From assembly GCA_950295325.1 (NCBI GenBank), contig OX485805.1, forward strand, positions 20,137,501-20,201,500: a DNA stretch of 64,000 nt, given 5' to 3'. The translations under genes were made by a program, and so were the position numbers. Below the pieces are notes generated by a model. The model was not told where the DNA came from. It saw only the letters and a list, made by a program, of their open reading frames with translations, and made no database searches. This document shows, one piece after another, positions 5,441-63,284 of the stretch. Each line of letters opens with the position of its first letter. The stretch's first letter is position 1. This DNA comes from Polytrichum commune. Lineage: Eukaryota > Streptophyta > Polytrichopsida > Polytrichales > Polytrichaceae.

Positions 5441-5450
5441 GATCTTAGTT

Positions 5451-6023
5451 GATATTTTTACACAAAATTGCATATAATCCTGGTCTTACTTAATAATCAG
5501 CTTCTGTGAAGACTATTTGTATCAATACCATGGAGCAGAAAGAAACTAGAGTTGATGCTTCACTCAAGATTGCATATACCCTGGTTTTGCTGTATGCTAA
5601 GCTTCTGTAAAATAGAGTTTCTATCATAACCATGAAGCAGAAAGTAACCAGAGTTATTGTTTCACTCCAAGTTCTGCTAGAAATTCAGCTTCTGTAGAGA
5701 GAATTGTATCATAACCATGAAGCAGAAAGCAACAAGAGTTGATATTTCGCTCAAGATTGCATGTGATCCTGGTTTTGCTGGATATTGAGCTTCTGTAAAG
5801 AGCATGTGTATCACAACCATGAAGCAGAAAGTAACAGAGTTGATGTTTCACTCCAGATTGCATAGAAAATCCTGGTTCTGCTGGGAACTCAGATTCCTTG
5901 GAGAAAATTCGTATCATAACCATGCAGCAAAAATTGACTAGAGTTGATGTTTAGCTCAAGATCGCATGTTGTACAGCTTCTATAGGAGGAATGTGTACTA
6001 TAACCACAAAGCAAGAAAGCATA
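5451..6023. repeat. Degenerate ~75-105 bp tandem repeat, about six copies
   Basis: Six consecutive diverged units share 'gttgatgtttcactcaagattgcat', 'cctggttttgctg', 'cagcttctgtaaag' and 'ataaccatgaagcagaaagtaac'. The last anchor is seen near 5529, 5630, 5716, 5816, 5918 and 6002. The array starts about 200 bp beyond the stop codon of the minus-strand glycosylase-like gene, so it may lie within or just past its 3' untranslated region. It is unrelated by eye to the array inside that gene's intron. Confidence 0.75.
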
Positions 6024-6222: not shown

Positions 6223-8379
6223 CTATTCACTTGGCGCTGCAATTTCAGTGAGAATGACCTTGACGAGAGGCACAGGCCAGAAGTAAGGTAAAGTGGGTGG
6301 CTCGCTCCAACCAAACTGGGTGTAGTGCGCAGGCTCTTTCCGGAGTAGATTTGATCGGTGGGAAGCGTGCACTAGCTCATCTCCTGCAATTATTCACCAG
6401 GAGCATCACACACACAAAGTCAGATGTGTTTAGGGTTTAGGGTACAGATATCTACCTCAAAATTGCAATACCAAGAGGAAATATAGAGATACCGGTGAGC
6501 TTGCATTCAATGAATTGTCGTCTCCTAGGAATGGTGAGAGAATAGAATCTCAGAATGTGCAGGGGTATGCAGGTCACAATCTGCATTACAACATCGGTGT
6601 GAAGATAGGAAACCACCAAAAAATGGAGAAGAAAACAAAGTAGTTCTTTGACATGCACGTCACTCTGGAGTATGCCGGGGTATGCCATGTCACCGAAGGA
6701 GGTCAGAGTGCAATAGCTCTTTGTGGATCGATGAAAAAGCCCCAAAAGAAGTTGAAGGTTTAATACGATGCCACTGTGAAGTGTACCGGGGAATGCAACA
6801 CTCTTCTTTATTGCTCATGTCTTGCTAAGAGGCTTACCTCGACGCATCAACACCCTTAAATTTCAGTTTAACATTAATGGGTACCTATGGAGAATTGCGG
6901 AATAATTCCGGGAAGTGCATATCTTATAGACTGGAGAGGAGAGGACGAGTTGGGAATGCAATAATCTTCTACATTGCTCAAGTCTTGTTAAGAGGCTTAC
7001 CTCGATGCATTGACACCCTTAAATGTTACTATGGCACTGATGGATACCTATGGAGAACTGCGGAACAATGACGGGAACTGCACATGCCATAAACTGGAGG
7101 AAGAGGATGAGTAGGGAATGCGACACTCTCCTTCATTGGTCATGCCTTTCCCACATGGTTACCTCGATGCACTGACACCCTTAGATTTCAGTTTGGCACT
7201 AATGGCTTCCTATAAAGAACTGCATACTGACCAGGAAGAGGATGAGTGGGAAACGCAATAGTATTCTTCAGTGCTCAAGTCTTGCTATGAGGCTTACCTC
7301 GACGCATTGACACCCTTACATTTCAGTTTGGCACTGACGGCTACTCATGGAAATTTGCGCAACAATTCTGGGAAGTGCACATCCTATAAACTGGAAAGGA
7401 AGAGGATAAGTGGGCTTACCAATAATCTTCTTCATTGCTCATATCTCGCGAACAGAGTTACCTCGAAGCATTTAACACCCTTAAATTTCAGTTCGGCACT
7501 GATGGGTAAATTGCGCAACAATTGCGAGAAGTGCACATCCTATGAACTGGAGAGCAAGAGGATAAGTGGGGTATGCAACACTCTTTTACAATGCTAAAGT
7601 CTTGCTAAGAGCGTTACCTCTCTGCATTATCTTTCTTCATTGCTCAAGTCTTCTTAAGTGGTTACTACAATGCATTGACATCCTTAAATCTCACTTTGGC
7701 ACTGATGGGTACTGATGGAGAATCCCGCAACATATCTGGGAAGTGCATATTTTATAACCCGGAGAGGAAGAGGATAAGTTGGGATTGCAATAAAAAATTC
7801 CATTGCTCAAGTCTTGCTCAGAGGATTCCCTCAACGCATGGACACTCTTAAATTTCAGCGTTGCACTGCTGGGTACCAATGGACAATTGCACAACTATTC
7901 CCCAAAGTGCACGTCCTATATAGTGGAGAGGAAGCGGATGAGCGGGGTTAAAAGATAATCTTACCGAGCCATGGCGGCATGAGAACCTGACCCTCAGGTG
8001 TCTCCACTGGCTGCAAGACGATGTTTTTGAATCCACGCTGGTCCCATTCCTGCAGGCAATGGTTGTAGTAGACGGCCAAAGAGTCCGGGAATCCCCGCCA
8101 CATCCTGACCGCAGGAGAGTTCGCCCACGCAGTTCCGGGAACCGGCACGGGACTGGCCTGCACTATTCGCAGGATCTGCCATGCCTCCACACGTTGCTTC
8201 CCTAGCCTGCGGTTGTCCAAACACTTGACGCTGCTCTCGAAGTCTGGGTGGGGCAGGAATGTGTTCAGGCACCGGATTTGGAGGTTCCTGGAGTAATAAG
8301 TCCGTGGAATTGCGATGCTGTTGTGAAGAGGTAGCGGTGACAAAATTCCCAAGTATCGTGGTGGTTTTAGCAACGCCAT
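6223..8379 (-). CDS. Pyrimidine dimer DNA glycosylase-like protein (MSMEG_6728 type), two exons, probably organelle-targeted
   Basis: Coding exons on the minus strand are 8379-7965 and 6383-6223 (191 aa). The donor (CTCG|GTAAGA) and acceptor (TTGCAG|GA) join in frame inside a Gly codon and restore the family string PPWLGDELVHASHRSNLLRKE, of which neither exon shows the whole. Domain from about residue 38: 'NTFLPHPDF', 'CLDNRRLGKQRVEAWQIL', 'NSPAVRMWRG', then 'HASHRSNLLRK' and 'HYTQFGW'. This matches the bacterial family annotated as MSMEG_6728 / pyrimidine dimer DNA glycosylase (related to T4 endonuclease V). Glu65 in 'QRVE' sits about where T4 Glu23 would be, by inference. Residues 1-36 are an extension rich in Arg, Ser, Leu and Pro with 'RTYYSRN', like a mitochondrial or plastid presequence. 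The expected role is excision of UV photoproducts in organelle DNA. The family is seen; activity and location are inferred. Confidence 0.8.
6785..7960. repeat. ~160 bp tandem repeat filling the intron of the glycosylase-like gene
   Basis: About eight units, some shortened, carry 'aggcttacctcgacgcattgacacccttaaatttcag', 'ggcactgatgg', 'ggaagtgcacatcctata' and 'ggagaggaagaggataagtggg' (anchors near 6836, 6997, 7161, 7297, 7459, 7614, 7660, 7822). The last unit runs right up to the exon 1 donor. Read on the gene's strand, three units contain AGGTAAGC (a near-perfect 5' splice site) and three more contain AGGTAAC, so the intron holds repeated decoy donors. Confidence 0.8.
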
Positions 8380-10036
8380 AACTGTGGAGGATTTTAGTTA
8401 CATAACCAAAGGTTCGGTTGTACTTAAACCCTAAACCCCTAACCCAAGATTTCTTTAGAACCCCCTCAACCCCCTGAATTCCTCAGAAAATTCAGCTTTT
8501 GAGATTTGTGCTTGACACGTCCAGAATCCTTAACCCCAAATCCCTAACCCAAGATTTCTCCAAAATCCTTAAGCCCCCTGTATGATTTTTCACAGAAGAT
8601 TTAGCTCATGAAAACTTTCTGTGCTTAAGACATCCAGAGTGCAGCTAGCTCCCACCGATAGGATTTCTCACACCGTTCACGTTCTCCCGATATTTCGATG
8701 CAAGGGCTCAAGATGAATCGAGGCAGGTTACGCAGATAGAGGCAGATTGGTGCAAGTGCAGAATTGAGCAAGTGATTTTCAGCAGATCCTGAAGCTGTTG
8801 CAACAAGAAGCAATTTTGGAGAAACTAGGAAAAAAACGATTGAACGTGCCAACACACTAGCCCAGAATTGAGCATAGATGAAGATAGATTGCCACTGATT
8901 ACGATAGATATTGAGCTTTTGCGGTGAGAGGTTCTCCAAATTCCAGATGAGTTATCGTGGACCATGACGCACAAATTGCCAACGCTTTCCAGCAAACTTG
9001 GCCGGCGCAGAAAGAAGAAACCGTGGAAGAAATGCCACTCTACACGTGGAGCACCTTCGTTGATGTGAGCACCGTCATGAATGCAGAAGTTGAGCTGCCA
9101 TATCTATAGAAATTGATAAGTGTTTGATGGTATGGTTCGTGCTTTCAGCCATAAACATAGGACAGTCTGAACAAGTTCCAGTACATTGGGCAAGACCCCA
9201 TAAGACAATACTGGATTTCAATGCAGAGTGGGCTCAGAAGATGAAATCACTCAAAGTTATTTTTCAGTTTCAGGAGACTTTCCATACCTATTCAGAAGTT
9301 GAGCAGGTTACAGATCGTCCAGGGTGCAAGAATACACTACACATGGTGGCAATCTGAGGCAGATGTGACTGCCAAATGGCTTCAAGGGTTCATAGCTCAG
9401 CCTTTCTTAAGTTAGAGGGTTCTCATCATTCCCAATTACAATTCCTTATAATTGAAGCAACATCTGTTACCGATTTAAGGGGACACTTTACTAGAGTTCC
9501 ACATCTTTCTGTAAGAATGCAAAAAGAGAACCACATTTGGTATGCATTAATGATTCATGTTGTACTCGCAAAATTTAGAATGATCTCAGCTTTAAATCAA
9601 GCATCTACTGGATAGTATAACTATAATCCTCATAGCTACAGACATTTGCATTGATGATCCTTCGCTTTTTTCTGGTCCACATGACCAGAAATACTGCACT
9701 ATTCTTACTAAGCAGGCTTTTAGTGTATCATTGCACGGCTGGGGATTGAAGGCAAAGCCATCAAATTTAGAGATGCTGGTACTAGGCTCTTCCCTCCACA
9801 CCAGTTTTGGACTAGGATTTCGGAGCCTTGAACTCCATAATGCAACAGCTTCCAACTAGCTTCAATCTCCACTGGTTTGCGAAATAAGCAAGTTGTAACT
9901 GAAAATCGTGTTGCTGGGTAGCATCATCCCTCCAAAGGTCAGGATGAAAAAATTCACCATCCTGGTTTCAAAAGATATGAAATTGCCAGAACTGCATGAA
10001 GTTTTGAGGACTGTTTCATCCTCCACACCTTTCGAC
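8380..10036. other. Intergenic region between the glycosylase-like gene and NSN1
   Basis: No gene is recognised. It should contain the promoter of the minus-strand glycosylase-like gene (including the telo-box motif listed separately) and the 3' untranslated region of NSN1. Short open frames at 9124-9357 and 9376-9615 show no domain. Confidence 0.5.
8424..8445 (-). promoter_or_regulatory. Telo-box motifs upstream of the glycosylase-like gene
   Basis: The stretch 'taaaccctaaacccctaaccc' lies about 45 bp 5' of the start codon at 8379. AAACCCTA is the telo-box known from plant promoters of translation-related and cell-cycle genes. Whether this is promoter or 5' untranslated region is not known. 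Confidence 0.5.
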
Positions 10037-13000
10037 CTAGTTGATACCATCCATTGCATCCCCTTCATTGCTTCCTGCATCATCATTTTGGCCTTCTGTT
10101 TGGTCATCTGCATAATCAACATTAAAGTCATAATCATCACCCCCCTTTCCATCTTTGGTGGCCACAGGAGCACCCTTTGCAGCCTTCTTCTTTTGCTTCT
10201 TCTTTGCTCGTTTGGCATGTGGGTTCTGAATGCCTTCCGCATCATAAAGCTTCTCATTCTGGCTCAAATATGCCTTGCCCCGTTTCACAGCAACTTCGGT
10301 TGTATCCATCTCAATCGGACCTGCACTTTCCTCTTCCAATTCATCACCTTCGCCTTCATCACTACTATCGTCTTTCTCTTCCATGGCCTCATTAGCCTGC
10401 ATAAAGAGCAAAGACATCCTTAGTGGGTGCAAATACTAACTCAACCAGAGATGCCTTAAAAGCTATTCTGGCTGCTTTTTACATCACAACACATCTCTGG
10501 TTCACAGCAGTTGCATATTGTGCTCTGCTAATAAAAATGTACAATTGCACCAAGAAACCCAAGGAAAACACCTATACATCATTAGGATCTATTTCCTAGT
10601 CCAAGGAAGATGGAAGCTCATTAGTAGTAAAAACCTGCTCATGAGTAACGACTCAGAAATGCATGTACATAAACTGCCCAAACAACCAGAGATGTATTAT
10701 GAGATCGCAGACGTAAATGTAGGTGCTCAACCTAGCCAAAAACAAAAAAGTCCATAAAAATGAACAATCACCGAAGGTAATTCCTACAGAATCAGAAAAC
10801 TTCTGTAGATAAAAGAGTCTAGAAACTGTACCAAAGAGTCATCAACATCCATGGTAAGAGGTGCACTTGTTGGCATTTCCACATGCAAGGTATCCACCAA
10901 TGATGGGAGCCCTGCAATGACAGCTGAAGCTTCATTTTGAAACACAGCCTCCACATCAAATTCTTTGCCCCAGTCTGACACAATGGTGGATTCTGCATGC
11001 TCACTGATCTCTCGAGCAGGAGGTGTCGTGAAATATGGCACTTTTCCTGTATATTCCAATAAAAACAAGTAAAAGGTGTAAGAAACAAGTGCCTAGCGCT
11101 ACTCAGAATAGGCTATTGCAGATTCCAAACCAACCACAGCAACCACTACTTTCAGAGGCTTGGTCACACAAATGTATCTTGATGGCTAGATTATATCCAA
11201 TACTAGATCAAGACTATCTCATTATTTATGTTCAACTACAGGAAGTGGAACTATAATAACCCCTGCATGTTCTCTCAGCTTTGCTTGTCCTATTCCCCCT
11301 GTATTAATCCTGTATTCATCTAGCTATACATCATGCTGAGGTCAGGCTAAATAAAGCTTAGGTCAGACAACAGCAGCAGAGGTACTCCAGATGTATGTCC
11401 TATATTTAGGATTGCCTCTAGTAAATAACAATCTAATAAAGGAACCAATAAAAAGTAGATGGTTAATTGAAGTTCTCCAGCAAGCATACCTTCATTCCAG
11501 TCATGAAGGACAATCCGGGCTGCTGCCGGACTGTCCAGCACACCTCCTTTTTTCAATTTTCCCCTCACATTAGCCACGTTCATCAGAAATTCATCCACGT
11601 TGCCAAACTTGGGAATCTTGTAGATGGACATCAACTTTTCAGCTGGGCATAATCGCAGGATTTCTTTCACTGCCAGATATCAGCCAACGAAATTATTTCA
11701 GCCAGAACCTTTTTTCAGAAAGTTAGTGTATGACAATCAAACCAGACTCAATGACCACCACAAAAGTATGAAGCCATAAACAAAAGATGGGAACAAGGAA
11801 TCTTCTATGCTCATAAAACAAAAGGGAGAAAGGAAATCAAACAAGTATTTTGAACACCAAACACAGTAGCAGACATCAATTTTACCTGGGGTGACAGGAT
11901 CTGCAAGCTTCTCAATCTTGGTGCAATTCCGAAGGGTAGCAGAAGCTTCATTGTCACCTGCAGCAGCAAATACAATACCAGGGCAATCAAGTAGCTTTAC
12001 ATGCTTATCCAGGTGGATCTCCTGCATTGCTTTCGTGACACCAGGGGTTGCTCCAACACTGGCTACTCTTGTTCTCTTCAAACTGTTGATTAAGCTACTC
12101 TTCCCAACATTTGGAAATCCAACTACGCCGACTGTAACTGCTGTTTTGAGCTGCATGTACAAGATAAAGAATTTAAAGAACGTCGAAGTCATCACATTTC
12201 AGACATCCTTGCAATCATGTAAGCTCTACATCTGCAGCACATTCTACAATTGAGGGGTACAAAAAGAAGAACCCTTCAGCTCCAAAGACAGGGATCAAGC
12301 TCCCTGGCCTCTTGCATCCCTTCTTTTCTAGTCAAAACAATTTCTTCTCATAATTTCTTTAGATTGTTGCAAAGTGACATTCATCTTGGCATTGGAAGTA
12401 ACATACCTTTTGATTTCTAGAGTAATTTTTAAGAAGCTGAAGAAGAGTTTCAGCACCAAGACAGTCACTGGATTGCAAAGCCTCGACATTCTCAGTTGCT
12501 TTTGCAAATGTCTTCCTGCCAAGGTTCGTTCTTTGTTGCTGTGTATTACACTTAAAGGCAACAGTTGGTAGCTCTTCTCTTAAATACTTCAACCACTGCT
12601 CGACAACCTCTCTGGGTACAAGATCTGCAGATCAAATAAGTGTAAGAAACAAATGAATTTTCTACTAAACCTTCAACCCCTGTTGATGGACAAAGATGCA
12701 CTCCTTGTGGTTACAAAGCAAGAGAAGCACTTATTACAGATTACAAAAGTAGAAATACTTGTTTCTGTCACCTTGCTTCATGCAGTATAGCCATGCTTAC
12801 TTCATTCGTTTAATGGTTTATTATCTAAAGACAAGTTGCTGGTCATAAGAGGAAGTAAATGAATAGAGAGTGCTCACCAATTTTATTCAGAAGAAGAACG
12901 ATGCGCTTAAGTGGACCTGCCTTGTGGACCATGCGTTCAACATCCACACAGCGGCTGCCAAGAGGATCCCTTGCGTCCAAAACTTGGATAATGACATCTG

Positions 13001-44358: not shown

Positions 44359-44512
44359 CCACAAATCGCCGGGGAAAAAAAAAGTATTTACCTCAATACT
44401 ATCTTAGATACATACACATACTTAGACATAGTACATGACATAGTATTACACATAGTATTCTATATACTATTACACATAGAATAAATACTAGATACCATCG
44501 TATTACTCATGG

Positions 44513-46220
44513 TACTCTACAATGTCCAAAATACCATATGGAATACAAGTACAATTTCTCTACGTTATACGTGCACAAATACAATACTCAAACCAAATAC
44601 TATATCCAAACAAAATACTATACACCTACAACAAAGTCCATACTCTATAATACTAGATACCATCATGCTAACATCAATATCCTACAATGTCCAAAATACC
44701 ATAAGAAATATAAGTATAACTACTTTACTTTATATGCGCACAAAGACAAACCTCAAACGAAATACTATCCACACCCAAAATACAAACCCCACACAAAATA
44801 CAGATTACATCCAAAATATAATCCCCAAAAAATATATATATATAGTCCCCACCAAAAATACAAACCCCATCTAAAATTTTTCTACAAACCAAAACACAAA
44901 TACCATGCAAAATACTCAACTCCCATGATAATCATTAACAAAAACCATAATAAACTAAAACGAGCTCAGCCTACCGGCCTCGCCAATATAGAAAACAAAA
45001 AACTAAAATAAAATAAAAGATAAGGACAACAAAACAAAAACATACCAAAAAAACAAACCACAACTAATACACCAAGTCATAGACCATCTATCACCTCCTA
45101 TCAACTAAGGCCCATCAACTTAATTACTACATCCCCTAAGAGATTAAAGATTCTTTTGTATCTCTCTAATACAAACATCTACGCTACTCTACAACCACAA
45201 TACGCCTCTTATACAAAAAAAGATAAACCATCAAAAAACAAAGAAACCCGATCACACCCTAGTACCATATACACACCTACAACAAAACCCGTACTCTATA
45301 ATACTAGTTACCAACATACTAAGCATAGTACCCTACAATGCCCAAAATACCATATGGAATACAAGTACAATTACCTTACTTTACACACACACAAAGACAA
45401 TACTCAAACGAAATACTACACACACCAAAAATGCAAACCCCACCCAAAAATTCATACTGCTCCCAAAATATAGACCTCACCAAAAATATAAACACCATCA
45501 AAAATACAGATTCCACTCAACATACAAAGAGTACCCAAAACACACATATTTCTTATCCAAACAATTAGAAAACACAACACCCACCACAAACAACCCTCTC
45601 GCCGCAACCAAACATGCACTCATAAAAACCACAAAATAAATAAAACTAAGCCAAAAACACCCAAACGCCACCCAAATCTCAAAACCCACCGAAAACTATG
45701 CCTCAAACCAAAACTCATACGAACAAAGCAATATAATAAACAAAATAAGATAGATAGCCCAAAACAAAACAACAAAATCCATGAAAACCATGAAAACCAT
45801 AAACAAATACAAACAACCAAAATTATAAAAAATAACCACAACAATAGAAACAAAACACCTCTCCAAACCAATGACCAAATAAAACAAATACACAAAAAAC
45901 AAAACCAAAATAATATACGTAAAACCTTAACAAAAACAAACATAAATCATACGAACAAACACAAGAAACAAACAAACATAACCAAAGCACACCTTCAAAA
46001 TACAAAAATACAAAAATACATATACAAAACCAAAACCATACCAAACACAAAAGACAACAAGGAAACAAACAAAAGCACACCATATCTCTACAAAAACACC
46101 AACCCACAACATCACCCCACCCCTCTAAAAAAATCCCCCCAAATACCAAAACAAAAAAACACAAAACATAATCCACGTAAACCACCTAAGATGGGCTCGG
46201 CCTACCGGCCTCGCCCAAAA
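44513..46220 (+). repeat. LINE 5' region with repeated monomer-like units
   Basis: The block 'ctacaatgtccaaaataccata...' followed by 'acaaagacaa..ctcaaacgaaatacta' occurs at 44513, 44681 and 45331. 'cacctacaacaaa..cc..tactctataatactag' occurs at about 44620 and 45271. A GC-rich 23 bp block containing 'gcctaccggcctcgcc' occurs at 44962-44984 and 46193-46215. Such partial tandem units resemble the promoter monomers of some LINEs. No coding capacity is seen on the plus strand. Confidence 0.65.
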
Positions 46221-46451
46221 TCAAAAAAGAAAAAGAAAAAAGAAAAAAACATAAATAAAAATTCCAAACAACCACGAAAAAAAACCACTGAACATCCAAG
46301 CCACATAACAAACCTAAACACCAAAACAAGGAAAAATAAAAACCAACAGTACACAACATACAAAGGACGGAAATATCTTCTCACAATGCAAGCATTTTTC
46401 TTACACTAACTCATACTACAAAGTGGGGACATTGAAACCAACCCGGGATCC

Positions 46452-48197
46452 ATGCCCAACATCCTACAAACACATCCAACCACACACAAAAATAGATGTA
46501 AAAGGTATTTTATAGAATGCACAATCAAATTACAACCTGAATACCAACATCTAGCAAAACAATTCTCCCCTATCATAAACTTAACACACCCAAAACACCA
46601 CGAAGCAATTATAAACTACCCACACATATCAAGATACATCTACAGAAATCAACATCATCCACCACCACGCATACTATATGCACTAATTACCACAATTAGC
46701 CCAGTAATAGAAACATGCAATCATTTATTAATACAAACCCCAGAACCTGATTGGACAACCATAGTTCTAGAACGCATAACCTCACTCCAAAACCCACCCG
46801 AAAGACACATCACAACCACACACCCATACACACAATTCTTACAAACAAATCAAGACATTATCAACCCACCCAGAACCATCCACAAAAAACTATATAACTT
46901 CATTAAACAAAGTAATGTACCCTTAAATATACAGCTAATAACAGACAAATTTCCCTTTTTACCAAATGAATTACTTACAGAAGCTTTAAAATGTAAAGAC
47001 CCGCTATATGAATATTCCCACCCCCCGCCACTACCCGACATACCCACGTTGCACCCCCAAGAAAACCAAACAACAAACCACAACACACATTTAATTACAT
47101 GGAACGCTTCGTCACTAAACACAGCCCTACCAAACCTCCACCAACTTATATCATATACACCAAACAATCCCCCAATCATCACTATACAAGAAACCAAACT
47201 AACTGCAACAAAATCTACAAAATACATACAAAACCTATTCCCACAATACAAGCTAATATTTAATAACACACATACATTAACAAGATGTATACAACAAAGA
47301 ATGCCATATACACATGCAAGAGGTGAACTCCTTACACTCATAAACAAATCATACACATATCCCGGTAACATCACCAAAATCCCCACTCCAGCTGCAATAT
47401 AACCATATTTATAAATAATAAAAATAAACAACCAACCCCTACAACCATGGCTAATAATACACACCTACATGCCATCACACGAAGAGGACATACGACTTAT
47501 ACCAATAATACAACAAAATATCACACAACAAAACACTAACCACCCAAATCCCACACTCATCCTATGCGGAGACTTCAACAGAGACATAGCCCTAATTGGA
47601 CGACAAAATGGATACATAACAACACCACCACAAGTTGAAGATATAGAATGGCATACATTTACGAACAACCTTGAACTCACATATATCCCCACGAACAGCT
47701 CATACTCTAGACAAGGGGGCCAAGACTACAACCAAACTAGCTTAATAGATGGATATTACATTAAAACACCCAATAATGCTATATACTCATCAACCACAAA
47801 TAACGACCATAACCTAAACTCAGACCACTCCCCAGTAACACTACATATACCACCAAATACACTACTAGCCCGCTGTACGCCACCAACCACAAACAAACCA
47901 CCAAGGCTACTAAACCCCATTCCACAAGCAAACATCGAATTATTCAAAACAAAATTTTTCGAAGAAAACGCACTACAAATAAACGAACTCACAAATATAT
48001 TAAAAAACAACCAAATAACAACAGTACAATGGCAAAGATTTTGCATTAAGCTAGACCATCTAATTCAACAAATTTCTGAAAAAATCCAAGAAACGTATAG
48101 CGCACCATCCCTCACAAACCGAACATCGCATCAAGGAGGTTTTCTACCAAGAAAACTACAAACAAAATGGAAAAATATCTCTCCACCTACCATCTAA
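46452..48197 (+). pseudogene. LINE ORF2 N-terminal part: APE-type endonuclease
   Basis: An N-terminal stretch of unknown fold (46452-47090) is followed by the apurinic-endonuclease-like domain: 'LITWNASSL' at 47091, 'IQETKL' near 47190, 'CGDFNRDI' near 47563, 'GGQDYNQTSLIDGYYI' near 47720, and 'NSDHSPV' near 47815. These are the catalytic N, E, D..N and SDH motifs of LINE APE domains. Function: nicks the target DNA to prime reverse transcription. The domain is split by a short disrupted stretch near 47400-47470. Confidence 0.75.
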
Positions 48198-48599
48198 TTA
48201 GGAAAGCAATCTACCGCATAAAGAACTCACCTAACTGGTCAACACACCCAATAATAGAAGAACTACGTAATCACACTCAAATCATTATCCCACCCCCCCC
48301 CCCCAAATCAAGAACCTAACTAACAAGAATGGATGAAAACAATAGCCCAAATAGCCAAAACCGCAATTATACATGCCCGAAAAATTACCACAAAATACAT
48401 CCAAGAATGTATCAAAAAAGCAATAACCAAATACAATCAATTATATAAAAAAATCCAAAGGAAATTAACAAAAGAGTCTTCAAAAACCAAGAAACACCCC
48501 CACTCGACTGCATTACAGATGAACACCAGAACATACTTACAAACCCGGTAGACATAGCCAACGAAATCCACAAACAACAATCCACTAGCAACAGACCCA

Positions 48600-50061
48600 C
48601 AGTACCAACATGTTATCACCAACCGGAGCATACACCATACTGTACATGCGGTGTAAGACAATACCCTTGGCATGACCTGGACGGATTTGTCATCGACAAG
48701 AGAGGAACCCCACAAACCCCTCTACATAAATACTTTGACAGAGAAACATACAACATTTGCCTTGAAAACCTAGCAAACAACAAAACACCAAGCCCCGATA
48801 AAATTCCCAATATAATCATAAAGAATATGTCCGAAAGCTTCCACAAACTACTCTTCCTATTCTTCTTCCACTGTTATAAACAAAAACAAACCCAACATCA
48901 TGGAAAATAAGCCTAACCATATTCTTATATAAAAAAGGAGACCCCTCAAAATTATCAAACCATAGACCAATTGCACTCGCAAATACAATATCAAAATTCT
49001 TTACAAATACCCTAACATTTATATTATCAACATACAAGAAAAAACACCAAATCCTTCACGACAGTCAAGAAGGATTCAGAGCAGAAAGAAACACATCCAG
49101 ACAACTCCAACTTCTCATAGCAGCACTAGAAGATGCAAGATTTACAAATCAAGATATATATCTATTATATATTGACTTCAAAAATACCTTCGGCTCGCTC
49201 GATCACGCAAAGCTGTTAGCAATAATAAAAGACTTAGGATACCCAGAAGATGCGGTGACCCTAATAGGAAACATTTATTCAAACTCCAATACCATATTCA
49301 TCGGTTAACACTTCGGAAAAACAAAACCTACACCAATACAAAGAGGCACAATACAAGGAGACACACTCAGCCCATACCTCTTCCTAATATTCCTAGAACC
49401 TCTACTTAGATGGCTACAAAGAGGAATGAATGAATACACATTTGGTACGTCCAAACTAACAATCAGTTCGGCAGCATACGCAGACGATCTGGCCGCTATC
49501 ACAAGCACTCTTCAATCAATACAAATACAACTAAGCAAATTAGACAAATATTGTGATTGGGCCAGAATGGATTTAGGAGTGCCAAAATGTGCCATCACAG
49601 GGTGCCCAAATAAATCAAAAATAAAACCAGAAACATTCAAAGCCCAAATCCAAGCCCAAAACATCAACTACAGGAACCAACAACTACCAATCATACACCA
49701 AAACAAACCCTACGTCTACTTAGGCATACAACTAGTATCGTCACTAAAATGGAAGCTCCAAACACACATCACGTTAGCCAAAATAATAAACCAATGCAAA
49801 GAACTTACAAAATGCCCAGCTACAATCAAACAAAAAATAAGCATAGTGGATACCGTCATCAGAGTTGGTATAGCCTACAGCTTCTACGCAGTCCCATACT
49901 CATTACCAACCATCAAAAAATTAGACAAAAAAATAATTGGTATCCAAAAAATAATATGTGGTCTTCCCAAATGTACAGCAAACATAATAACCCAACTACC
50001 ACATGACCTATTTGAACTAGGAGCATTCTCATTAAAAAAATACTTACCTAAAATGTATTAG
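48600..50061 (+). pseudogene. LINE ORF2 reverse transcriptase
   Basis: RT motifs in order: 'NKTPSPDKIPNIIIK' near 48780, 'LYKKGDPSKLSNHRPIAL' near 48925, 'SQEGFRAERNTSRQL' near 49062, 'LLYIDFKNTFGSLDHAKL' near 49165 (catalytic Asp), 'TIQGDTLSPYLFLIFLEPLL' near 49345, and the YADD box at 49477-49488 ('AAYADDLAAI'). 'DLGVPKCAIT' near 49570 begins the end of the palm. At least one in-frame stop and other breaks are present. Function: target-primed reverse transcription of the element RNA. Confidence 0.85.
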
Positions 50062-50620
50062 CGAACAACTTAGGAATGCATTAAACGACTCCGGAAGATA
50101 TGGAACAATATACAAAGGACTCATACAACACATACTAACCAAACACGAAGGGGCAGAGGACCTACAAAGAATCAAATACCAAGATTGTATAAGATCACCT
50201 ACAACACGAACGTTAATCCTAATGAAAAAAAGAATGAGGAGCTCACCTCAAAAGCATAGAAGCAAATTTTCAACTTCACACAACAAAACTAGAACATGAA
50301 TAGATAACACAAGCCACAACCGAATTACCACAACTAAACCCAGAATTATCCATAAAACTACTACAAAAACTCTTAACCCACAACATACATAAAGTAAAAC
50401 ACATTTCCCTCCCCAATGGCACAAATTTAATGTCCCCAAAAGACATCGAAATATATTATAAAACACCAACAAAACTCGAAAAAACTGCACTACGTATAGC
50501 GGAACAACTTTTTTGCCAACAAAGTTGCAACCAAAACTGCCCAAACCCATGTAACAGGCAGCCCAAGCCCGTATACTAAAAACAAGATACATATCAGAAA
50601 ACAGTGAACTAACATCCAAC

Positions 50621-51620
50621 ATGCAAGAAAATCCATTACACCTACCACCACAACTACAACCACAACAACCCAATCCACCCCCCAACATAAAAAATAACCC
50701 ACTCAGATTCTCCATACACAGTATACTGAACCACAAATTAAACGTAACCAAAGATAAGTATAAAATAACAAAAAAATTCAACACATACCTATGCCAATGG
50801 TCATTTAAAAACAACACCACATATAACAAATGGCTACCACAATGCGAACTCTTCCCACTAAACCAACCCCCAGTAATCGAACACAACATCAAATTACTAA
50901 AAAAATACTACACAAGACACCAATACAACTACTATAAAAACATTGTACAAACACACATAGCCCCCATACAAGCCAAAGATCCAAGATTTATACCATCATC
51001 TACGATAATACCATACAGACAAATATCAGTAATAGAATGCAACCCAGAACAAGACATTGCCACTGTAGGAAACACCATATACACACAAAACGAATTAACA
51101 CATGTATACGAAGACACCGGACGACACCTCATTACCATCCCAACTACAAGACTAAAATGGTTGTGGCAACAATATAACAAAGATAAATACAATACACACG
51201 GCTTAATACCTCCCCCACAATCATTCGAAACAGAAGTAGTATGGCTCTATCAAATATATAACTCTAAAAAACCAAAAAAATACCCACTAAAAACATCACA
51301 ACACACTCTCCCAGAAAATCTCCTTGACTCCATCACCAAAACACTCAACATCACACACTCATATTTCTCCTCACCAGTAACATATTCTACACATATCACT
51401 AAATTTTACTCCCCATTTGCAAGAGACAAAGTCTTTGGATCACTAGGTACTGCCTTCCAATACAAATAGAATGGAATTGGGTATGCACACCCACATAATG
51501 AAGAAACAACCCAACAGACAATACACTGGGCAAGACTAGCAACTAAAACCGACTCAAACAACATTACAATATTAGTTACACCGGACCATACCCGGACACA
51601 CACGTGTTAGCCCATTTCAA
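50621..51620 (+). pseudogene. LINE segment between RT and RNase H: candidate methyltransferase-like domain
   Basis: An unusual ~330-residue segment: 'PPPQSFETEVVWLYQIYN', 'LPENLLDSITKTLNITHSYF', then near 51420-51500 'FARDKVFGSLGTAF' and 'NGIGYAHPHN', then 'TIHWARLATKT' and 'NITILVTPDH'. The order (Phe-Gly-Ser, aromatic-rich strand, G-Y-A-x-P-x-N, an amphipathic helix, a hydrophobic ILV strand) recalls N6-adenine methyltransferase folds of the PCIF1 type, where NPPY is the catalytic loop, and related segments that I recall from green-algal transposon polyproteins. Here the loop reads AHPHN, so the copy would be inactive or divergent. The assignment is inference; only the motif order is seen. 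Confidence 0.35.
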
Positions 51621-52563
51621 TGCAGACAACATTATATATGACGAACCAACAACCCCACAAAACATAAGCAAACCCCGAATAGAACCATTAGCAATACACA
51701 TCTTTTGTATCCACCACCAAAACCTCAACATTGGCACACCCGATCAAATAGATACAATTAAAATAGTAATCGAAAACCTACAAATAGTACAATACCACAT
51801 ACAAAAGGCCCCACCCACACCTCGCAATACTCTAGTAAACAAAAACGCTAAATGGAATAAATTACTCTACCCACCCCATATTAACCCATCAACCACAAAC
51901 ATACCACCGTTACCAAACTTCGAAAAAAACACGATACTAAAATTCCCACCACAATACAGCTACTACACAGACGGATCGTTTGTCCCACCCATACAAGCAA
52001 ACGACAGACATTGGAAGAAAGAAAAAGCTGGCTATGGAATTTACAACCCAACAAAAGCAGAAATACGTATATCAAAAAGACTGCCTGGCCTACAAACCAG
52101 CTTTAGGGCCGAGCTAATGGCCATACACAAAACACTTAGATTAATTACTACCAAATACACAAATGAACCAGCACACATATTCACAGACTGCCTCAACTGT
52201 ATATATGTACTTAACACACGAATAAAACACCCTACCCACCATAACAACCATGCAGACAAAACTATATTTACATCTATGGTAGAAATGCTAAAAAGGCGAA
52301 CGCAACCCACTACGATATATAAGGTAAAAGCACACACAAACATTGATGGAAATGAGCAAGCAAATCAATTAGCAAAGCAAGGCGCCAAAAAAAGATACAG
52401 ATTCGCTGTCAAAGCGTACGAATTTGCACACACCACACCATATTATTTCCAAAAAGACTCCTGGTCTGGACCAAACAAACGACCTGACAAAGGCCCTGTC
52501 AGATGCCTCGAAACATACTTAACTAAACACGACCGAGCTAACAATATAAAAACCATGTCATAA
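51604..52563 (+). pseudogene. LINE RNase H domain
   Basis: RNase H catalytic pattern: 'YYTDGSF' at 51961 (first Asp), 'SFRAELMAIHKTL' near 52101 (Glu), 'HIFTDCLNCIYVL' near 52177 (second Asp), and 'KVKAHTNIDGNEQANQLAK' near 52324 (His and final Asp). It is open throughout and has all four acidic positions. Function: removes the RNA strand from the RNA-DNA hybrid. Its place after RT and before the C-terminal endonuclease fits RandI/Dualen elements. Confidence 0.85.
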
Positions 52564-53361
52564 CAATTCCCCAACATTAGCAAATGGACAACGAACCCTG
52601 ACATTGATAATGAAATATCTAATAATTTGTGGTCTAACCCTATAATATCAGACTCACAAAAAACATGCATACTAAAATTCTAAACTGGACAATACATGGG
52701 CAACGCCAGAAAACAACTATTTTTTGGCATAGAAAGATTCTCATCTATCACATGCCCAATCTGTAACTCCTGTGACGCAGATACATGGCTACATGTACTG
52801 TTAAAATGCAATCAACACCATATACATGCCCTAAGAACCAAAAGACATAACAAAGCAGTATGAGAACTAAGAAAATTAATCCTATCATCGCAAAAATCAA
52901 GATGCTATATCCTTATGAATGCAAGGACATTCGACAACAACCCACAAGATAATACAGTCCCCACATGGCTCCTACCATGTACATGTGGACAACAAAGATG
53001 CCACTGCAACACAAGATTTAAACCCGACCTCCTATGTATCAAAAAACTCCCACACCAAAGCACCCCACCACCACACCCAACAGAAAACCTCACGGTACAA
53101 TTTATCGAATTCACATACACAAACGACAGATTCCCACAAGATACAATTGTCAATAAAATCCAAAAGTATCAACCACTTATTGATGACATCACTCAACAAG
53201 GCTGGAAGGTAGATCCACTTATAGTCATCTCGGCCGGAGCTAGAGGAACCACACACACCCCGTCAATGAAACAACTTGAACAAACATTTAAACTACCTCA
53301 AAATCATGTAAACCATACATTCAAAGAAATAAACACCATTGTCATACAATATGCTAGTTAA
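52564..53361 (+). pseudogene. LINE C-terminal zinc motif and restriction-like endonuclease (RLE)
   Basis: A CX2CX9HX4C motif at about 52753-52812 ('CPICNSC', then 'LHVLLKC') is followed by 'RHNKAV' at 52842. Further on, 'RFKPDLLCI' sits near 53014, 'VQFIEFTYTND' near 53095, 'KIQKYQPLIDDI' near 53155, and 'ISAGARG' near 53227. The series zinc knuckle, (K/R)HN, PD...(D/E), K..KY..L and a C-terminal GxRG is the signature of the restriction-like endonuclease of R2, CRE, NeSL and Dualen LINEs. Two in-frame stops interrupt the first half. The spacing between PD and the next acidic residue is longer than in R2. Confidence 0.7.
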
Positions 53362-53514
53362 ATCCTTCTATATAAAAGACGAATTGAAAATAACCAAGCG
53401 ATACCAACGGAATAATAAATAAATAAACAAACAAACAAAATAACAATAATAAGAAAATGATCATAAAATAGTCCTTTATTTATTAAACAATGAAAACTCC
53501 AATAGCTTAGGAAG

Positions 53515-60639: not shown

Positions 60640-60675
60640 GCATCCCTGCGTCCGCCATAGCCAGGCAGTGCAGCC

Positions 60676-63284
60676 ATGGTGTCCCTCAAGCTGCAAAAGC
60701 GGCTGGCCGCTTCAGTTCTCAAGTGCGGTGAGCGCAAAGTGTGGCTCGACCCCAATGAAGTCAATGAAATCTCCATGGCAAACAGCCGCCAGAACATCCG
60801 CAAGCTCGTGAAGGACGGCTTCGTAATCCGCAAGCCGCAGAAGATCCACTCCCGTGCCCGTGCTCGCCGCTCCCTCGAGGCAAAGCGTAAGGGTCGTCAC
60901 TCCGGCTACGGAAAGCGCCGTGGTACCCGCGAGGCCAGGCTCCCTACCAAGGTATGTCAGTCACTCATGTCCCAGGATCGCCTGATTCTTTATTTTTTGC
61001 AAAATTTCTTTCACATGGCATGTAACCGTGATTGAATTCAAATTTGACCAGGCATTGTCACTATGCTGAAATGCGAAGTTGATCAATTCTGCCAGCTTTG
61101 TTTCTAGACCCTAGTAGGGTTTGGTCTTTGGGAATTCCTTGCTACTGGATCTAGTAGGATTTTTGTTCGTATGGTATGCAACAATGATTGGGCTTGTCCT
61201 TCTGTTGAACTGCGAATTTTGTCAATCTCCCAGAACTTCTGGTTCTGGTAAACCAGCCGCAGTACATGTGTGGGGTTTGCACTGTCACCATTATTTTGAG
61301 TTGAATTCACATGTATGTACACTGGATGTATCAAGGATTTTTTTTGCTCATTTGGCTTGGAACGGAATCCTTGTTTTCAAATATGAAGTTTGGTAATTTG
61401 CCAGCTTTTCTTGTACAGGGTAGGCCATCTGCAGTGCATTTGTGTGGTTTCTTGTTTTCACCATTCTTGAGAGCTTGAATTCATAGTGTTTTGTGAAATT
61501 ATAGTTACTAGACCCCAGTAGGGTTTTTCCTTTTGAAAGTTTCTCGCTACTGTATGAAGCAAGAGTTTTTCTGTTTATATGGCAAGCAATGGCGATTGAA
61601 TTCGACATTGGTTGGGGGTGTGCTTGTGCTGAACTTTAAAGTTAGTCAAATAGCCAGTTCTTCTTGTACTGGTAAAGCCAGCTGCAGTACACATGTGCGG
61701 TTTTACACTGTCGCATATTAGAGAGCTTTAATTTACATGGTATTGTGAAATCTTTACCCTAACAGGGTTTGGCCTTTTGGAAATTTCTTGTTACTGGATG
61801 TAGCAAGAAATTTTCTTTTATACGGCATGTGATGGTGATTGAACTTGCGGTTGATTGGGGGTGTCCATATGTTGAAATGCAAAGTTAGACAAACCTGCCA
61901 GCTCTACTGTTTCAGGGAAGGCCAGCTGCAGTGCATGTCTGTGATATTATATTGTCATCATTTTTGAAAACTTGAAATCCAAAATCCTAAACCCAAAACC
62001 CTTTTTCATTCCTAGACCCTAGTAGGGTTTTCTATTTTGGAAATATCTTGCTGCTGAATATAGTTATAATATGAGATTATGTAAATTTGGAACATATATC
62101 AATGTATTTTTCATCTAAGTGAAAGCACTTTATGTTGTTGATTGGGTTTTTTGAGGTCTAGTCAGCTGCAATGCATGTGGGTTTTCGTATGCTTGTCTGT
62201 TAGGTTCTGTAGTTTACTCTATTGCAATTTTTGAGTGCTTGAATTCAGGGGGTTCTGTCAAATTTTCATTTGTAGACCCTAGTAGGGTTTAGCCTTTTGA
62301 AAAATCTTGCTACCACATGTAGTTTTCATGGTAGGTTATATACATTGGGTAGGGACATCAGTATAATTTGAATCCAAGTAAAAGTCATTGGTGTTGTCAA
62401 TCAGGTCCTTGATCTATGACACATTAATTAGGCAGTGACTTAACAATTGTTTGTGGAGTATTGTTTGAACAAATTGCGTCTTGTTGTTTGGGCGTAAGCC
62501 AGGTTTCTGACCTTGTCGTGAATCCAGTGAATCAATTGTTAATGCCTGACTTAGATAACTGTCATTTAAACCAAGTGTCAATGCCGAGAGCCAAACGTTA
62601 ATTTCAATCTTAGCTTGATTCATTGTCTTGATGTTTGTTTCCGTGAGAATTTTTACTCTATTATCCTGGAAACAGCAGGTGTTTCAATTCCTATTCTTAT
62701 ACAGGCTGCATATTAGCTATTCCAAACTCTTTGGTTGAAGATTAACCAATATAACTATTGAAGGGAGCTCATTGGTAATGTTGTAGATGAGTTTCTATGC
62801 ACTGCATGTCGCTTTTATGGACAAGGAATAGGAACTAGATAGATATTTACTTTCAGGTGGAAGCTGTAAATGATGGTGTTGATTTTGTAATTTTCAATTT
62901 TTAAATTCTCTTGTGGTTGTGGTGATGTAGGTTTTGTGGTTGAGGCGAATGCGAGTGTTGAGACGTCTTCTCCGAAAGTATCGTGATGCCAAAAAGATTG
63001 ACAAGCATATGTACCATGACATGTACATGAAAGTCAAGGGTAATGTATTCAAGAACAAGAGGGTGTTGATGGAGAGCATTCACAAGTCAAAGGCTGAGAA
63101 GGCACGTGAAAAGACTTTATCTGACCAATTTGAGGCTAGGCGTGCAAAGAACAAAGCTACTCGGGAGAGGAAGATCGCGAGAAGGGAGGAGCGTTTGGCT
63201 CAGGGGATTCCCGAGTCTGCTGCCCCTGCACAGGCTGCTGAGGCTCCAGTGAGTGTTGCTCCAGTTAAGAAGTCAAAGAAGTAA
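60676..63284 (+). CDS. RPL19: Large-subunit ribosomal protein eL19 (RPL19), two coding exons
   Basis: Exons 60676-60951 and 62931-63284 (209 aa); donor AAG|GTATGT, acceptor GATGTAG|GTT, phase 0. The start '[18 protein letters not shown]' and '[12 protein letters not shown]' are near-invariant in eL19. '[16 protein letters not shown]' ends exon 1, and '[20 protein letters not shown]' begins exon 2. '[20 protein letters not shown]' precedes the long basic C-terminal helix typical of eukaryotic eL19, which makes an intersubunit bridge to the small subunit. Length agrees with plant eL19. The intron is nearly 2 kb and holds a tandem repeat (listed separately). It looks intact and probably highly expressed. 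Confidence 0.97.
60985..62345 (+). repeat. ~250 bp tandem repeat in the eL19 intron
   Basis: At least five diverged units are anchored by 'agaccctagtagggttt' at 61106, 61510, 61754 (variant), 62014 and 62274, with spacings of about 404, 244, 260 and 260 bp. Other shared words are 'ggcatgtgatggtgattgaa', 'gttgggggtgt', 'ccagctgcagtacatgtg' and 'tcttgctactggatgtag'. The anchor is a near-palindrome of two facing telo-boxes. No coding content. Confidence 0.8.

Follow-up and report, generated by a model that had tools for sequence, protein, structure and literature searches.

A gene resembling that of T4 endonuclease V, with an intron and an added leader, on a chromosome of the moss Polytrichum commune

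Results

The window analysed here is a stretch of 64,000 nucleotides from the moss Polytrichum commune (positions 20,137,501-20,201,500 of contig OX485805.1, which measures 59.16 Mb). Its minus strand carries, between 6223 and 8379, a gene for a protein that resembles T4 endonuclease V. A preliminary description of the locus had proposed a plant nuclear gene for a pyrimidine dimer DNA glycosylase of the MSMEG_6728 family, acquired from elsewhere and made with a presequence. The gene is composed as follows.

7965..8379, minus strand: exon 1, 415 bases; start codon (8379-8377), leader, and core from Leu38 to the first base of the Gly139 codon
6384..7964, minus strand: intron, 1,581 bases, GTAAGA donor and TTGCAG acceptor, phase 1
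6223..6383, minus strand: exon 2, 161 bases including the TAG stop; completes MPPWLGDE, followed by HxSHRSNLLRK...YFWP

Joined in frame, the two exons encode 191 residues and are free of stops until the TAG; the join described earlier is thus confirmed, with canonical splice sites. It restores MPPWLGDE, the most conserved pattern picked from an alignment of the plant protein with seven viral relatives. The single other in-frame GT/AG option nearby, an acceptor at 6380, would delete the family-conserved Gly139. A purine at -3 and a G at +4 flank the start codon. GC content is 56.4% and 52.8% in the exons and 43.5% in the intron, the same order as in Physcomitrella, for which the passages covered of PMC1079823 give 50% for exons and 40% for introns; its 1,581 bases far exceed the mean intron length of 252 bases stated there for Physcomitrella. 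Tandem arrays with units of about 160 bases fill about 820 bases of the intron, about half of it, and a minisatellite of this unit length is located at 6789-7620. Another minisatellite (5447-6021, units of about 100 bases and multiples) lies directly 3' of the gene. Plant-telomere-like repeats are found inside the intron near the acceptor (TTTAGGG, plus strand, 6430-6444) and, in the opposite orientation, upstream of the start codon (CCCTAAA, 8424-8448); perhaps they are telo-box promoter elements or repair scars.

The gene lies at 20.14 Mb of its contig. The assembly comprises 64 contigs totalling 407.8 Mb; its first seven contigs measure 42-78 Mb each, which suggests n = 7, the number of Polytrichales. 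The plastid psaB of this genome has its best matches, at equal scores, in the Physcomitrium PDB sequences 7ksq, 6l35 and 8htu, and a plastid frame that appears to be rpoA is kept. Two plant-type exons share the 64 kb window.

11740-12198, minus strand: MMR_HSR1 GTPase exon
60661-61032, plus strand: RPL19e exon

The nuclear location of the gene is firm. Bacterial contamination or misassembly, for which we found no supporting evidence, is so unlikely as to be negligible and was rejected, because the large contig, the canonical intron and the plant-type neighbours all speak against it; the earlier argument from the intron is hereby joined by two others. Searches of this genome with the protein, NF038085 or PF03013 revealed no second copy.

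Concerning family membership, the joined protein scores 133.7 bits with NF038085, the profile of the MSMEG_6728 family, above its curated whole-protein cut-off of 100 bits. Exon 1 (82.8 bits, 2.3e-23) and exon 2 (40.8 bits, 2.1e-10) match opposite ends of this model, and neither passes alone. PF03013 (Pyr_excise, gathering score 23 bits) matches exon 1 alone with 65.7 bits (4.9e-18). By these profile scores the gene and its assignment to the family proposed earlier are firm. Plant and family have the whole core in common, including the motifs MPPWLGDE, LDxRRLGKQRVE and SHRSNLLRK; the plant protein alone differs by a leader, an intron in its gene, Leu for the start Met, Asn39 for Gln and Ser88 for His. 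PHROGs gave no named family. A PDB sequence search with the plant protein gave no match up to E 10, and the single weak match of the family profile in PDB (a CHCH protein, E 0.29) was taken as chance.

The proposed relation to T4 endonuclease V comes from the predicted fold of a protein closely related to that of the plant. With this predicted structure, T4 endonuclease V is the one clear Foldseek match among the best 50 of 210 listed, and the N-terminus of the model superposes on T4 residue 2. Low TM-scores mark the matches ranking below T4 in these 50, mainly ferritins and Dps, which were dismissed as chance. Direct sequence and profile comparison with T4 DenV was not significant. DenV and plant exon 1 both match PF03013 from the first model positions, but the N-terminal Thr-Arg-Ile-Asn of DenV is absent from the plant protein, and the motifs differ.

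We collected relatives from 7 viral contigs, from further scans in which 80 of 244 and 80 of at least 590 matches were kept, from actinobacteria (10 loci from 12 pattern matches), and from 24 phage and 6 plasmid records. A match was obtained for 197 of 198 loci; after removal of two fragments (L058, L059) and merging of identical cores, 163 distinct cores remained. Among actinobacterial genomes, all of one phylum, NF038085 matches in 20 of 296, above the cut-off in 18; it matches in 0 of 14 control genomes. The plant protein keeps 37 of the 39 columns that are conserved at 90% or more among the 163 relatives, a criterion observed in this set rather than curated. The positions that matter for the interpretation are listed here.

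8269..8379, minus strand: leader, codons 1-37; basic, no acidic residue, Ile-Arg-Cys at its end; a candidate presequence for organelle import
8266..8268, minus strand: Leu38 (CTG), aligned with the start Met of the relatives; site of T4 residue 2 when the fold of the relative is compared
8263..8265, minus strand: Asn39 (AAC); Gln in 163 of 163 relatives
8185..8187, minus strand: Glu65, conserved (1.00 in the relatives); matched to T4 catalytic Glu23 by eye rather than by residue-level alignment
8116..8118, minus strand: Ser88 (TCT); His, in the NHP motif, in 163 of 163 relatives

A start codon stands at the position of plant Leu38 in 160 of the 163 distinct cores (exceptions L007, L050 and L101). 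Counted to this residue, the N-terminal extension noticed before is real but has 37 residues instead of 36.

A tree of 67 rows unites the eight actinobacterial rows in a single clade (support 100/99); the plant protein lies outside it, among viral contigs. Viral contigs are over-represented among the rows, since that collection was scanned most. The nearest forks of the plant are weak (73/78 and 67/80), a 44-row split has 99/96, and the plant belongs to no well-supported group that comprises half the rows or fewer. In the tree that the preliminary description had called for, grouping the plant with the actinobacteria is thus not rejected (p-AU 0.321), and the donor may have been a bacterium or a phage. 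The end branch of the plant is 0.72 in this tree, where it is not flagged as long, and 0.82 in a tree of 164 rows, where it is the longest. Acquisition from a prokaryote or phage, as had been suggested, is the natural reading of the distribution and well supported by it, and the gene is real and probably acquired.

Discussion

We propose, tentatively and with a probability of roughly 0.42, that this gene of phage or bacterial descent encodes an organellar pyrimidine dimer glycosylase/lyase with the fold of T4 endonuclease V, which is activated by cleavage of its leader. The moss nuclear gene would be transcribed and a precursor of the MSMEG_6728 subfamily made, which would then be imported into mitochondria and/or plastids. 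A cut between Cys37 and Leu38 would leave a free amine at the position of T4 Thr2 and thereby activate the enzyme. With the assistance of Glu65, this amine would attack a damaged nucleotide at its C1', the damage most likely being a pyrimidine dimer, and elimination of the Schiff base would nick the strand and hand it over to organellar base excision repair. Import, processing and dimer excision would form a coherent chain. Mature T4 endonuclease V begins with the residue that bears the amine, according to the part of PMC3285167 covered here, so a leader left in place should prevent catalysis. The plant core can have a free N-terminus only if the leader is cleaved. A further suggestion is that import itself switches the precursor on: the uncut form, devoid of the catalytic amine, would spare nuclear DNA, and cleavage would create the active-site residue. 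This we consider rather unlikely.

Several findings weigh against the proposed organellar dimer glycosylase. The plant core begins Leu-Asn-Thr behind 37 residues, as opposed to the N-terminal Met-Gln-Thr of the relatives; this changed N-terminus lowers the claim that the protein works like its relatives, not its membership by score. The leader has a net charge of +5 and no Asp or Glu, as its earlier classification as presequence type would have it, but in hydrophobic moment it does not stand out from shuffles of its own composition, 4713 of 5000 of which come up to its value. The protein may instead act in the nucleus or cytosol, with a leader that is no organelle signal and an N-terminus that is exposed otherwise or not needed. 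The missing amphipathicity would fit this alternative; the basic, acid-free leader and the expected block of T4-type catalysis by an uncut leader speak against it, and we regard it as distinctly unlikely.

The replacement of the Gln and the His, which the 163 relatives have without exception, likewise weighs against a dimer glycosylase. Since one search pattern contained the His, we recounted on cores found by patterns off both columns or by profile, and again found Gln in 88 of 88 and His in 88 of 88 distinct cores (17 of 17 for both among profile-only finds). Asn39 and Ser88 are not single sequencing errors, because each is two base changes from the Gln or His codon. Among six more distant phage relatives (L308-L313), Gln at position 2 is kept in four and missing in two, and His is kept in five and missing in one. 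The two residues may therefore be dispensable. This argument is weakened by L309 and L312, the varying phages, which also lack the KQR core motif. These two are the Microbacterium phage relatives Hager and Count, whose proteins are possibly inactive or repurposed.

With these replacements, a changed activity or the loss of activity is a real possibility. It is possible, though on balance doubtful, that a real, expressed gene under selection has shifted to another substrate, or just to abasic-site lyase activity or damage binding. The two plant-only replacements and the end branch in the larger tree would agree with such a shift; the 37 retained columns, the variation among the distant phages and the unremarkable branch in the smaller tree argue against it. 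Alternatively, the gene may no longer function, having been acquired long ago and begun to decay, or may never have been expressed, for which the two lost invariant residues and the long, half-repetitive intron could be cited. There is no stop or frameshift, splice sites are canonical, conserved columns are retained far better than variable ones, and gain of the leader together with loss of the start Met left the frame unbroken, all of which makes decay unlikely. Of the earlier word "intact", the reading frame stands and the residues at Asn39 and Ser88 do not. A glycosylase/lyase of the organelles, its chemistry possibly changed, most likely describes the predicted protein.

Regarding other UV repair, a photolyase/cryptochrome-type domain is present in this moss genome, and the UVDE family has no match in it. 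MAG and SMUG1 have folds unrelated to that of the present protein and act on other lesions; they are not pyrimidine-dimer enzymes. Plant MAG and the bacterial-like SMUG1 of mosses resemble our case as base excision enzymes thought to be acquired from bacteria (passages of PMC12448838 and PMC10573277). In the passages covered, the plant base excision review (PMC10573277) lacks the words photoproduct and cyclobutane, section 28 on UV damage in a review on genes transferred into plants (PMC12448838) names MAG alone, and a plant UV review (PMC12707071) assigns base excision to oxidative damage and lacks the term endonuclease V; neither PMC10573277 nor PMC12707071 names a dimer glycosylase there. 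Light-driven repair of UV dimers in higher-plant organelles is called controversial in a passage of PMC6981420. The cv-pdg of Paramecium bursaria chlorella virus is likewise a pyrimidine dimer glycosylase in a eukaryotic setting (PMC5768739, in part), but it is a virus gene and is likened here without sequence comparison. None of the open-access passages covered describes a plant PF03013 gene or a functional study of the MSMEG_6728 subfamily. MSMEG_6728 of M. smegmatis, the founder gene, appears with -5.57/-4.75 in a table for a sigF mutant (PMC4694148) and, in PMC7174638, in a group of zinc-related genes whose function is unknown, in both cases in passages without bearing on activity. The moss gene is a direct, testable candidate for organellar dimer repair, in a group of plants with easy gene replacement, and it would be a rare case in which a single cleavage makes both the import signal and a residue of the active site. 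As far as the open-access passages go, plant organelles would with it have their first base excision enzyme specific for dimers, a rather improbable possibility.

Further observations

The genes next to the relatives are mixed. They include DNA ligase, DnaE, primase, 5'-3' exonuclease/helicase and Rad52, and also sugar-nucleotide, glycosyltransferase and rubber-oxygenase-type genes; one scan covered 10 flanking open reading frames at 7 loci chosen from 13, three of these frames giving no match. In an uncultured phage (L314, 3001-4367), the first 4 bases of a ligase-like gene also belong to the family gene, a hint at a shared repair step. Three actinobacterial members (L012, L014, L018), 299-318 residues long, end in about 150 residues that no Pfam model matches at E 0.1.

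No structured RNA was matched in the window by Rfam at gathering score (0 matches). A large retroelement of the non-LTR type occupies 44400-53400 of the window on the plus strand, with endonuclease, reverse transcriptase and RNase H matches; its strands are extremely skewed in composition (GC skew down to -0.56, AT skew up to +0.43). A plastid contig (C8, 146,561 bases; L025-L039) seems longer than one plastid circle, because several of its genes recur about 126,254 bases apart near both ends.
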